Origin: an uncultured Planktomarina sp.
GTDB lineage: Bacteria; Pseudomonadota; Alphaproteobacteria; Rhodobacterales; Rhodobacteraceae
Assembly: GCA_905182455.1 (NCBI GenBank)
Contig: CAJJBJ010000002.1
Coordinates: 248,001-312,000, forward strand
Reading direction: 5' to 3'
Length of the DNA: 64,000 nt
Part shown: piece by piece, positions 42,093 through 63,757 of the stretch
Numbering within the stretch: position 1 is the stretch's first letter
How the letters are laid out: each line of letters starts with the position of its first letter
Notes under the pieces: model-generated
What the model was told of the DNA's origin: nothing
Database searches by the model: none
What the model saw: only the letters and a program-made list of their open reading frames with translations
Position numbers and translations under genes: made by a program

Positions 42093-43040
42093 TCAGCCGT
42101 TCGCTGCCAAACGTGCTTTTTGCATTTTGGCAAAGTCATCGCCCGCGTGATATGAACTTCGGGTAAGTGGAGTGGCGGAGACCATCAAGAACCCCTTGCC
42201 CTTTGCCGCCTGCTCATAGCTTGCGAATTCCTCTGGTGTCACGAAACGGTCCACACGGTGGTGTTTCAATGTTGGCTGAAGATATTGGCCAATGGTGATG
42301 AAATCGATATTAGCTGCGCGCATGTCATCCATCACTTGATAGACCGCTTGGCGATCCTCCCCAAGACCCACCATGATTCCAGATTTGGTAAACATGGTCG
42401 GATCCAGCTCTTTCACCCGTTGCAACAGGCGCAAAGAGTGGTAATATCGCGCACCGGGCCGCACTTCAGGATAGAGGCCGGGCACAGTCTCAAGATTGTG
42501 GTTGAACACATCAGGTTTTGCCGCAACGACAACTTCCAAAGCTTCGGGATCACAGCGGATAAAGTCTGGCGTCAGAATCTCAATCGTAGTGTTTGGCGCC
42601 TGTTTTCTAAGAGCGCGGATGGTTTGGGCAAAATGCTCGGCCCCGCCATCTTTGATGTCATCACGGTCCACGGATGTGACCACAACGTGGTTGAGGCCTA
42701 GCTTTTTAACCGCATCAGCGACACGGCCGGGTTCAAACGCATCCAAACCCTCGGGTGGTTTGCCGGTAGCGATGTTGCAAAAGGTGCAAGCACGAGTGCA
42801 AACTTCGCCCATGATCATCATCGTGGCGTGTCCTTGGTTCCAGCATTCGCCTACATTGGGACAACCTGCCTCTTCGCAAACCGTCACCAGCTTATGTTCC
42901 CGCATGATCTTGCGCGTTTCTTGATAGCCCTGCCCAACAGGCGCTTTCACCCGAATCCATGCCGGTTTTTTCGGTTGTGGATTATCAGGACCCTTTGCCT
43001 TTTCAGGGTGGCGTTGCTTGGGGATTTTCAGATCGCGCAT
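42093..43040 (-). CDS. lipA: Lipoyl synthase
   Basis: Radical-SAM enzyme that inserts two sulfurs into protein-bound octanoyl groups to form lipoyl cofactor, about 315 residues. The radical-SAM cluster is CTRACTFC, and the auxiliary cluster cysteines are in [13 protein letters not shown]. The C-terminal RSSYHAGD motif is present. ATG 43040 gives the family start [12 protein letters not shown] with GAGG nine bases upstream; an in-frame GTG at 43055 overlaps that site and is not used. Confidence 0.95.
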
Positions 43041-43140
43041 AAATTCATTCCTCACTTACCGATATTTAACACAGCCACACCAAACAACCACCCCCCAGCC
43101 ACGAATATCCGCCATGCAATTAGATCGCAGTACAAAACGG

Positions 43141-43781
43141 CTATCCGACCAAAATATCTTTGCAATTACTGCACTCATAATAGCGGGCAAGCCGTTTCAG
43201 AGCGATACTAAACTCAATTTTCCCAGAGCGCGCCGGTCACTCAATGGCCTATCCTACGGCCTCCAATCCCTCCAACTTACAACAGCACAGCAAGGCCATA
43301 TCCCCAGGACCGGGGCCAAGATCAGCCAAAGTTCGTGTGGATCATCGCATTCAACCAATCTTGCATGGCCATGCCATCACCTGTGCCCGGTCAACGACAC
43401 CAAGCATTTCGACATTTGCCTGCGCGTCCTCTCGCACGATGATAGCTGCCTCCAATCCTTGAGCTAGGGCCTAAACTATTTGTTTTCGCGCCAAATATAG
43501 CAGCACTGTCACACTCGCGTGAACGAGCTGCAGGGTAAAATTTGGGTTTTGTTTTGGCTGTGAAAACTCATAGATCTATCCTCCGGGCGCCGAGACACGG
43601 GTTTAGAGCAATATTTACGCAATTTTTGGACCGCACAATCGATAAGTGCATCGTCACGCTCTATTTCAATTTTGCATACAGAGCGCAACACAGTTGACGG
43701 GTGAACACCATAATACCGGGCCAAACTGCGGATGGAATGACCATGTTCCAGTGTGGCAAATAAAGATTCGCCATATGGTTA
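43141..43781 (-). pseudogene. Decayed DUF6456 helix-turn-helix gene
   Basis: Remains of a Rhodobacterales DUF6456 transcription factor. From 43778 downward one frame reads GESLFATLEHGHSIRSLA and then YGVHPSTVLRSVCKIE, ERDDALIDCA: the N-terminal helix-turn-helix. Further on come EAAIIVREDAQANVEMLGVV and MAMQDWLNA (middle part), then DLGPGPGDMALLCCCKLEGL and ARSGKIEFSIALKRLARYY (C-terminal DUF6456 core). The pieces lie in different frames with several stops, and the gene is shortened. The frame opens right after a TAA at 43779-43781. The family is recognised from memory; the decay is seen directly. Confidence 0.65.
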
Positions 43782-44046
43782 TCCAAACAGGCATTTTCAA
43801 TGCGGCGCCCGTCGACCGTTTGCAAGGTCAAATTGTGAGATACGTACTCTAAACACTAATCTATACAAAGGTTACGTTAGTACAATGGTAACAATGATTA
43901 CGGGTTCAGTTAATTAGGTCCAAATATTAAAGGATCATAGTTAATATCCGCTACACTAAGAACCGACCGCGAGCTGAAAGCCACCCCCGCGCAACACCCC
44001 AAAAACCTGTGCAAGCCTGAGTGCTGATTCTGCTCAGGAGGCACAA

Positions 44047-44328
44047 ATGCGAGATGTTGAACGGCGACTGTCAAACCTAAAGCGACCAAAACTTATGGTC
44101 GATGCGGCTCAAAATAGATTGGCACACTATAATTTCGAACGACATCTCCACAGCTCAATCGCTAAGCAGGAGACATTGGGGCCAAATGGGTCAATCTATT
44201 GTGTGTTTGAAATGGAAGATGCCTACAATAGACTGCAACAATAAAAGCGCTCTCAGTATTCACCATAGCGCCATATTGGTTATTTGATCGCCATTTAGGG
44301 CGAGAGTCGCAGTCTTAGAGCCCGCTAG
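44047..44328 (+). pseudogene. Decayed DUF6477 family gene
   Basis: An ATG with a strong AGGAGG six bases upstream opens a 65-codon frame (RLSNLKRPKLMVDAAQNRLAHY, split at will) ending in TAA. The same frame then continues through two TAG codons with family-like sequence: QYSP, RHIGYLIAI, GESRSLRAR, stopping at 44328. This matches the C-terminal pattern YSPARH.D.LIAL.GEAR of DUF6477 proteins, as I recall the family. Thus a 93-codon gene with three nonsense codons. It faces away from the dead DUF6456 gene and overlaps the mttB-like stop by 4 bases. Confidence 0.6.
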
Positions 44329-45866
44329 ACAAACGCATCTGGCATTGCTGCCTTTTTATCAGCGACGTATTTTTCGAGGGCTGCCAAAATCTCAGGGTCA
44401 AGCGGCGGTTGTTGGTAGGTGGCCAATTGAAGTGTCACCCTATCTGCCGCCAGCGCATACGTATCGCGCGCGCCTTCTTCATACCAAGTTTCAAACGGTT
44501 TGTAGTCAAACAGGTTTGAGCGCCAGAATGCCGCTTTGAAGTTCTTTTGCGTGTGTTCACAGCCAAGGTAATGGCCACTCGGCCCCACTTCACGGATGGC
44601 ATCCATGGCTTGGCCGTTTTCATCCGATTCGACCCCAAGCGCCATTTTGTGCAGGGTACCCAGTTGATCCGCATCCATGACAAATTTCTCAAAGGAGGAC
44701 ACCAAGCCGCCCTCAAGCCAACCGCAGGAATGCAGCATGAAATTCACACCTCCCAACAAAGCCGCGTTAAGTGTATTGGCAGTTTCATAGGCCGCCTGCG
44801 CGTCTGGCAGTTTCGAGCCACAGAGGCCACCACCGGAGCGGAAGGGCAAATTCATCCGACGCGCCAATTGTCCGGCTCCATAGAGAATTTGGCTGGCTTC
44901 AGGCGTGCCAAAGGTCGGAGCGCCAGAATTCATATCGATAGAGGTCACAAATGTACCAAAAATCACCGGAGCGCCCGGCTTCAAAATTTGGCTATAGGCA
45001 ATGCCCGCCAGGACCTCAGCCAAAACTTGCGTCAAGGTACCCACAATCGACACCGGAGCCATAGCGCCACCCACGATGAAGGGTGAAATGATGCTGGCTT
45101 GATTATTTTTAGCAAAAACTTCCAAAGCTCCCATCATGATGCTGTCAAAGGTCAAAGGACTGTTGATGTTGATCAACGAGGTCATCACTGTGTTGTTTTG
45201 GACAAATTCCTTACCAAACAAAATCTCGCACATATCAACGGAATCCTGCGCCCGGCTGGGCTCTGTCACGGATCCCATAAAGGGTTTGTCACTATACACC
45301 ATATGCGCCATCAACATATCCAAGTGACGCTTGTTCACCGGCACATCGGTAGGCTCGCACACCGTGCCGCCGGAATGGTGCAAATACTTTGACATATATC
45401 CAAGTTTCACGAATTTTTGGAAATCTGCGATTGTGGCATAACGCCGACCGCCGTCGCGATCACGCACAAAGGGAGGGCCGTAGACCGGCGCTGTCACCAG
45501 TGTTTTGCCACCAATTTCCACATTACGTTCAGGATTGCGCGCATGTTGAATAAACTTTGACGGTGCCGTTTTGCACAGTTCGCGGGCCAAGCCGCGCGGA
45601 ATTCTTACCCGTTCGCCCTCAATTGTGGCTCCTACAGATAGCCAGCGTTCCAAAGCCTCGGGGCTATCCACAAAATTAACGCCGATTTCTTCGAGAACCG
45701 TCTCAGCATTATACTCAATCATCTCAAGAGTAGCTTCATCTAAGAACTCATATAACGGGATGTTGCGCTCAATGTAGCGTTCAGTCTCTACACTGATTGC
45801 TGTACGTTCTGCTCTGCGGGCGGCACCGCCTCCGCTGCGTGATCTGCGACCTGCTGTTTCGGCCAT
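44325..45866 (-). CDS. Trimethylamine methyltransferase (MttB) superfamily protein
   Basis: A 513-residue corrinoid-dependent methyltransferase homologue. It reads through without a mid-gene TAG, so it is the pyrrolysine-free type, whose studied members demethylate quaternary amines such as glycine betaine (MtgB). Conserved MttB stretches include GVNFVDSPEALERW, VYGPPFVRDRDGGRRYATIADF and MLHSCGWLEGGLV. No corrinoid protein, reductive activator or methyl-THF transferase gene is adjacent, so its partner must be encoded elsewhere. It is divergent from guaA with 154 bases between. Confidence 0.88.
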   Translation of the reverse strand: MAETAGRRSRSGGGAARRAERTAISVETERYIERNIPLYEFLDEATLEMIEYNAETVLEEIGVNFVDSPEALERWLSVGATIEGERVRIPRGLARELCKTAPSKFIQHARNPERNVEIGGKTLVTAPVYGPPFVRDRDGGRRYATIADFQKFVKLGYMSKYLHHSGGTVCEPTDVPVNKRHLDMLMAHMVYSDKPFMGSVTEPSRAQDSVDMCEILFGKEFVQNNTVMTSLININSPLTFDSIMMGALEVFAKNNQASIISPFIVGGAMAPVSIVGTLTQVLAEVLAGIAYSQILKPGAPVIFGTFVTSIDMNSGAPTFGTPEASQILYGAGQLARRMNLPFRSGGGLCGSKLPDAQAAYETANTLNAALLGGVNFMLHSCGWLEGGLVSSFEKFVMDADQLGTLHKMALGVESDENGQAMDAIREVGPSGHYLGCEHTQKNFKAAFWRSNLFDYKPFETWYEEGARDTYALAADRVTLQLATYQQPPLDPEILAALEKYVADKKAAMPDAFV

Positions 45867-63167: not shown

Positions 63168-63412
63168 TTAAGCAGAAATAGCAAGTTCCTTTGCCACATC
63201 CGCTGGCTTTGGATCTCGCAGCACATCATGCCCGTTTGTGTCGGGAAGCCCAAGATTAAGCAAAATCAAATCTTAGTCATAGTCGTAGAGCCTAGCAAGA
63301 TCGACGCCTTCCTCGCCCAAATCCGTTGCATATACGTTGAAAATGGTATGGCCTAGTATCCGCTCGATGCTCTTAGAAGTTTCCGGAGTATTTTATTCAA
63401 AAGTATACGCAC
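63168..63412 (-). pseudogene. ctrA: Relic of the cell-cycle regulator gene ctrA
   Basis: GTG 63412 opens MRILL-like VRILL; a shifted frame then gives [31 protein letters not shown], a TAA stop, and DLILLNLGLPDTNGHDVLR. This follows the N-terminal receiver of CtrA residue for residue, where the family reads TSKSIE, NVYATD, EEGVDLAKLYDYD and LILLDLNLPDMNGHEVLR. The phosphorylation-site Asp is Asn here. After HDVLR the similarity ends; the rest of the receiver and the DNA-binding domain are missing. Family match is from memory but strong. Confidence 0.8.
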
Positions 63413-63757
63413 CAATATCCCCAATAAATTTCTACAATAACTGGATATAAAATAATTAATTTTCTTTATTTTAAATTTTTTCAGGTTGTTGATATTTTTC
63501 AACGACGTCACCCCCAAGGCGCGTTCGCCATAATGCGCAACAGCTATCTCCCAGATGGTATGTTCATCATGCGACAACACATATAAATTAAATGCCTCGT
63601 CCAATGAAATAGACCAGAACAGCACCGCGTTCACCACCGTCGCCTTTCTCGATGCCACCCAACGTTTGGTGAATTTCTGAGGCATATCTGCCCGACTCAT
63701 AAAATTGCCATAGGGCAATTGCATGGTGCGGGGGCCTTGAAACTTTTTAATATACAT
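63353..63757 (-). CDS. sciP: SciP (DUF1153) CtrA-inhibitor homologue with run-on C-terminus
   Basis: The first about 95 codons encode a DUF1153/SciP protein: [53 protein letters not shown], and [10 protein letters not shown]. SciP binds CtrA-regulated promoters and blocks CtrA. Some normally conserved helix-turn-helix positions differ (EAFNLY where relatives have EAxxRY). The normal stop is gone, and the frame runs on through AT-rich DNA into the ctrA relic, ending at 63353. ATG 63757 is the usual start; GTG 63766 is in frame. It may be expressed but is probably decaying with ctrA. Confidence 0.65.

Follow-up and report, generated by a model that had tools for sequence, protein, structure and literature searches.

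Predicted pseudogenes of gafA and rcc01866 and the likely demise of the GTA program in an uncultured Planktomarina

We found that two broken genes lying back to back in a 64-kb window (the whole stretch of DNA analyzed here) of an uncultured Planktomarina sp. genome, G000, are identifiable by homology as predicted pseudogenes of gafA and rcc01866, the divergent GTA activation, maturation and release pair of Rhodobacterales. We put at roughly 0.88 the probability that the GTA program of G000 is dead and that the decay of this pair followed the loss of the particle genes, with ctrA likewise left as a relic. The order and cause of the decay, which G000 alone does not show, are most likely those suggested by its relatives: the particle genes would have been gutted first, then gafA and rcc01866, their purpose gone, would have drifted until inactivated by point mutation or deletion, and ctrA, having other duties, would have been lost in some lineages only.

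GafA homologs carry the DUF6456 annotation (PMC9638019), and this domain is reported in 196 of 208 GTA-bearing genomes (PMC9765227). GafA of Rhodobacter capsulatus is a direct activator that binds the GTA promoter and is itself under CtrA (PMC6363796), and the divergent gene rcc01866, which has no predicted function, is required for particle maturation and lysis (PMC9638019). The Dinoroseobacter homologs of gafA and rcc01866 are Dshi_1584 and Dshi_1585 (PMC6473078). The first-pass annotation had treated both window genes as members of poorly known families, which is not so for DUF6456, the known activator GafA. The functional link that it read from their joint loss is real, but was shown earlier by mutants and not by co-loss, which alone is weak evidence, as one deletion can hit both neighbors. 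On the whole, that reading is partly supported.

The relics between lipA and the mttB-like gene

As the first-pass annotation had it, a minus-strand DUF6456 gene and a plus-strand DUF6477 gene lie divergently, back to back, between lipA (42093..43055, minus strand) and an mttB-like gene (44325..45866, minus strand); both flanks of this syntenic slot are intact, both inner genes are dead, and profile searches recover both families above their cut-offs. Scanning the window for Rfam families and tRNAs returned nothing. The gafA (DUF6456) pseudogene (43144..43913, minus strand), delineated by homolog and DNA alignment, survives as three pieces spread over two frames, with six stops and the center deleted. 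PF20057 matches its 43174..43338 stretch (minus strand; profile positions 81-135 of 136) with 59.2 bits (E 6.8e-16; cut-off 26.3) across two internal stops. We aligned the relic against the intact 441-codon frame of G045, a same-genus genome in a single contig. By tblastn, codons 62-182 of this frame correspond to 43913-43557 with three stops, codons 180-245 to 43566-43372 in a different frame with one stop, and codons 380-441 to 43329-43144 with two stops. Approximately 134 central codons (246-379 of the G045 numbering) are absent, and the DNA alignment with G045 displays several further small deletions. Thus, the helix-turn-helix part and the C-terminus are still recognizable in a broken frame, as befits a dead member of the GafA family. 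Because the beginning of this G045 frame overlaps DUF6477, its ~95 initial codons may be a noncoding leader, in which case the earliest of the six stops would be noncoding as well; a weak fourth piece, at 36% over 42 columns, falls in the same possible leader region. The relic resembles GafA (rcc01865) of R. capsulatus in its DUF6456 domain, its divergent partner and its single genomic match, and differs from it in the frame changes, stops and lost center. Of 14 control genomes, PF20057 matched one, that of Caulobacter, whose GafZ is reported to resemble the C-terminal half of GafA (PMC11150451). Separately, a single TAA interrupts the gafA match in G003 (L009), and of the two matches to GTA_TIM in that genome one likewise has a TAA.

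The DUF6477 pseudogene (rcc01866 family; 44047..44328, plus strand) retains a 93-codon frame that is continuous except for three nonsense codons, as claimed for it earlier. The internal stops are at 44242, 44266 and 44296 and the closing stop is at 44326. PF20083 matches 44047-44331 (plus strand; profile 1-95 of 97) with 68.5 bits (E 7.6e-19; cut-off 25), and the intact G045 gene aligns with it by tblastn at 48% over 91 amino acids with the frame unchanged throughout. Like rcc01866 of R. capsulatus and Dshi_1585, this is a small gene divergent from an adjoining gafA, from which the relic differs by its three nonsense codons. No intact paralog was found elsewhere in the genome: searches of the 2.12-Mb genome (95.8% complete) with PF20057 and PF20083 returned no second match to either family at E <= 0.001.

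The identification of DUF6477 with the rcc01866 family is made through gene order and phage homologs, and not from the R. capsulatus protein itself. We fetched 80 loci via the mttB-like neighbor protein, namely those of its best 80 of 585 relatives. Of these loci, 73 contain DUF6477 and 75 contain gafA; both genes occur in 72, always as divergent neighbors, and neither in 4. The gafA/DUF6477/mttB-like order is likewise conserved in 72 of these best 80 of 585 (L165-L244); we know of no GTA role for the mttB-like methyltransferase. The phage RDJL Phi 1 is reported to carry homologs of gafA and rcc01866 with one ctrA-like gene between them (Fogg 2019, PMC6363796). The small genes at this position, beside the ctrA-like genes of RDJL Phi 1 and Phi 2, match the DUF6477 profile in hhalign with probabilities of 95.7 and 94.6%, respectively, as against 0.1% for one control gene. 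In a viral fold search, the top row for the DUF6477 model is a 72-amino-acid RDJL Phi 2 protein (probability 0.99); its E of 0.22 exceeds the usual threshold, and we weigh it only together with the hhalign profile result. A tblastn search of phages with one DUF6477 protein gave no match, and PHROGs gave only a weak one (E 0.025). The predicted model is all-helical (pLDDT 84.5). No convincing PDB relative was found by sequence for the profile (best E 0.74) or by fold for the model (29 rows, best E 2.5), and structure accordingly offers no mechanism. Taken together, gene order and the RDJL homologs predict that DUF6477 is the rcc01866 family.

The alignment with G045 also places a remnant of a CtrA-like box of the shared promoter at 43898..43913 (minus strand), with a spacer of 8 bases as against 7 in G045. 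We scanned for TTAA-N7-TTAA, which we take to be the CtrA-like motif, and found a best site with at least 7 of its 8 letters in 57 of the 72 gafA-DUF6477 intergenic regions, where 7.85 are expected from simulated sequences with like dinucleotides. Taken singly, the boxes of the five intact Planktomarina regions tested are not beyond chance (0.08-0.36), and the best box of the relic intergenic region, with 6 of 8 letters (0.86), is no better than chance.

GTA loci and the graded series in Planktomarina

The genus retains the GTA particle cluster in part of its members. In G206, g2 to g15 are flanked by mltG and the gene for a serine acetyltransferase (cysE), as identified by Pfam (g11 weakly, g1 by position), and G203 and G204 display g2-g15 in the same order. 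In G000, the corresponding slot between mltG and cysE measures 1006 bases and holds only a g15 fragment with stops (C2:484889-485795); apart from this relic, the structural-gene cluster is absent, leaving nothing for GafA to activate. The slot of G045 contains g1, a g2 broken across two frames and the beginning of g3 fused to the end of g15, and further remnants are g15 pieces in G209 and G215 and a g3 piece in G210. No GTA piece was detected at E <= 1e-3 in the 31-458-base slots of G201, G211, G198, G199, G213, G214, G200 and G212. This comparison leaves aside G207 (which has no mttB-like ortholog), G202 and G208; G202, G207 and G208 gave no mltG match. G205, which misses two markers, was initially a candidate GTA-negative genome and was dropped, as its contig stops inside g2. 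The mltG match includes one TAG in the sister genomes G201 (L265) and G215 (L270).

Planktomarina temperata RCA23 and the RCA cluster are reported to be without complete GTAs (PMC10675870). G000 is likewise without a full GTA, and three same-genus genomes differ: G203 (L257), G204 (L255) and G206 (L256), which carry g2-g15 and fall within the GTDB Planktomarina. They belong to a sister clade that may fall outside the RCA proper. In a tree of four neighboring proteins with 19 genus rows (G207 excluded) and five outgroup rows, G203-G206 form the sister clade to the remaining 15 genomes, and none of the 13 of those with a readable slot has an intact GTA.

The gap between lipA and the mttB-like gene could be read in 19 of the 20 genus genomes (G207, lacking an mttB-like ortholog, being left out). 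It spans 1638-1726 bases in G045, G209, G201, G205 and G206, 3.9 kb in G203 and G204, 1272 bases in the window, 839 in G210 and 104-439 in ten other genomes. In G209, gafA is open and DUF6477 contains a stop; in G201, DUF6477 is open and gafA carries a frameshift and a TGA. These single lesions come from draft assemblies, in which they may be errors. G210 lacks the intergenic region, the initial 11 codons of DUF6477 and the gafA center, and all that is left in G215 is the final 22 codons of each gene, which fits a single deletion. Counted as losses only, gafA would have died five times on the tree, and at least three times, given that two of the branches used are weak (75/61, 92/80).

Planktomarina thus presents a graded series, running from a full GTA, through gutted particle genes with an open gafA and broken regulators (as in the window), to an empty site; the gene identities, their lesions, the empty syntenic sites and the GTA and ctrA relics are all direct observations. 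New here are the regulator-side steps: gutted particle genes with an open gafA in G045, either member of the pair going first in G209 and G201, and both lost in G215, G210 and the window.

CtrA, selection and competing accounts of the decay

The window harbors a third relic, that of ctrA (63171..63386, minus strand), which consists of receiver part, a jump to the last 18 codons and one in-frame TAA. It corresponds to G045 CtrA codons 10 to ~64 and then 220-237, with the DNA-binding domain deleted. In the G045 ctrA, an identical ten bases occur at both deletion joints, 474 nt apart, making a short-repeat deletion likely. The CtrA model NF045991 has no match in G000 at E <= 1e-90. The relic lies between sciP/mnmA and ligA, as does the intact ctrA of G045, G206 and G215; sciP and ligA were identified by Pfam, and the other flank is presumably mnmA. 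The adjacent sciP (DUF1153; 63482..63757, minus strand; PF06627, 80.6 bits) is an open frame that differs at several positions and reads past the usual stop, and is probably eroding. Frameshifts are seen in ctrA of G210 and G201 and in sciP of G210, all in draft assemblies where they may be errors, and in G198 and G213 the slot has lost both genes. For G209, G200 and G208, the stretches retrieved at the ctrA slot did not include its flanks, and ctrA gave no match at E <= 1e-90, a threshold that misses relics. ChpT (PF10090) is matched in 9 of the 20 genus genomes, including G000 (27.4 bits; cut-off 22.9), where the ChpT-like match (C2:569766-570044) lies in an open 231-amino-acid frame despite the relic ctrA. 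Hence, the CtrA relay is perhaps not wholly lost.

At the level of the family, we sampled 198 genomes from 197 genera, of which 172 have both DUF6456 and DUF6477, 6 DUF6456 only, 2 DUF6477 only and 18 neither. Thus, 190 of 198 have both or neither (Fisher p 1.6e-18), in counts that take broken copies as present, include many incomplete genomes and assign 4 of the 24 genomes without DUF6477 by subtraction. The co-occurrence anticipated by the first-pass annotation is therefore borne out, also within the genus, where the same 9 of 20 genomes have both and 11 have neither. Markers were tested in a chosen, not random, sample of 76 of the 216 genomes, comprising the 20 of the genus, the 26 others in which at least one family was missing and 30 genera selected from those having both. 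GTA_TIM or DUF2460, either of which we took as a GTA marker, occurred outside the genus in 25 of the 30 with both genes, 5 of the 18 with neither and 5 of the 8 with one member, the other three of these eight being G028, G076 and G114. CtrA (E <= 1e-90) was found in 29 of 30, 5 of 18 and 7 of 8, respectively. Thirteen of the 18 with neither gene are without both GTA markers, and 12 of these 13 are without CtrA. The exception, G017, has CtrA alone. Conversely, five of the 30 chosen genera (G030, G036, G095, G122 and G123) have the pair and CtrA yet no GTA markers; these might be marker misses at contig ends, as in G205. G123 is a single contig, with a gafA frame of 286 amino acids. Multiple matches to GTA_TIM and to DUF2460 in both G093 and G143 indicate that each of these genomes has more than one GTA-like or prophage cluster.

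Selection on gafA was compared across pairs of genomes. Between G045 and G209, neither of which has a working GTA, gafA dN/dS is 0.594 (27 nonsynonymous and 15 synonymous changes), which differs from lipA (0.036) and mttB (0.083) of the same pair (p 5e-6) and is indistinguishable from neutral (p 0.146), though on only 42 changes. For the GTA-bearing pair G203-G204, gafA dN/dS is 0.145 (dS 1.4). For the GTA-less pair G045-G201, it is 0.14-0.20, and that of DUF6477 is 0.135; such past constraint implies either that GTA loss there was recent or that the genes had another job.

These data bear on how the pair came to be lost. One alternative is that ctrA died first and silenced the shared promoter, with gafA, rcc01866 and the particle genes then decaying jointly. 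The ctrA relic in the window, the CtrA-like boxes in 57 of the 72 shared intergenic regions and the absence of CtrA from 12 of the 13 genera outside Planktomarina with neither gene and no GTA marker all speak in its favor. However, ctrA is intact in G045 and in G215, with a dN/dS of 0.019 between them that points to other duties where it is kept, and yet both have a gutted GTA and G215 has lost the pair as well; moreover, G017 has CtrA without either gene or a GTA marker; we accordingly regard this sequence of events as rather unlikely. Loss of the pair is not strictly tied to that of ctrA, a connection that the first-pass annotation had suggested testing: ctrA is indeed dead in the window, but it is kept in G215 without the pair and likewise in G207 (77% complete), where ctrA is present and the pair unmatched. 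It is equally improbable, in our estimate, that the pair also has a duty other than the GTA and disappeared from G000 for some unconnected reason, such as genome reduction. Its retention without GTA markers in five of the 30 chosen genera and the past constraint between the GTA-less G045 and G201 would fit this, but gafA is near-neutral between G045 and G209, and of the 13 genus genomes with a readable GTA slot that is empty or a relic, 11 have lost the pair or carry it broken (in G201, gafA only), the exceptions being G045 and G209, of which G209 has the DUF6477 stop.

Co-loss might instead reflect linkage only, one deletion removing both neighbors without functional meaning, as the remaining 22-codon ends in G215 and the lost intergenic region and DUF6477 start in G210 would suggest. 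Against this stand the separate point lesions in each window gene, the breakage of one member in G209 and of the other in G201, and the reported linkage of the mutant phenotypes of the two genes (PMC9638019), which leave it a slim chance. Finally, the genome is a draft in 11 contigs, and the lesions could in principle be sequencing or assembly errors, but this is extremely improbable: between flanks that are intact, the two genes together carry nine in-frame stops, changes of frame and a large deletion of the center, the ctrA and GTA loci each hold a relic of their own, and related genomes show shortened or empty slots. We thus favor the death of the pair in the wake of particle loss.

Implications for GTA loss in the genus

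GTA loss, the cheater idea and, from mutants, the gafA-rcc01866 link were already known. In particular, pseudogenization and loss of GTAs across Alphaproteobacteria, with possible cheater lineages, have been described (PMC10883770). The phenomenon is the same here; the main text of that paper does not mention gafA, and our data add the regulator side, seen stepwise in one genus. Our literature search turned up no report of the gafA pair decaying in Planktomarina, and none on Planktomarina temperata together with CtrA. The occurrence of a third relic, ctrA, in the same 64-kb window as the dead gafA pair is an addition of the present analysis, and shows ctrA decay in a lineage whose GTA is gone. 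Likewise, the unnamed family DUF6477 is now tied, by predicted homology, to rcc01866 and to a phage gene.

The presence of full, gutted, relic and empty states within one genus allows one to ask in what order the components were lost and which genes are dedicated to the GTA. We tentatively posit, at somewhat less than even odds, that the genus could be a time series of GTA disarmament, in which repeated particle loss would free the dedicated pair, though not ctrA, from selection, the pair having no other job, and which may record repeated take-overs by non-producing "cheaters" in the open ocean.
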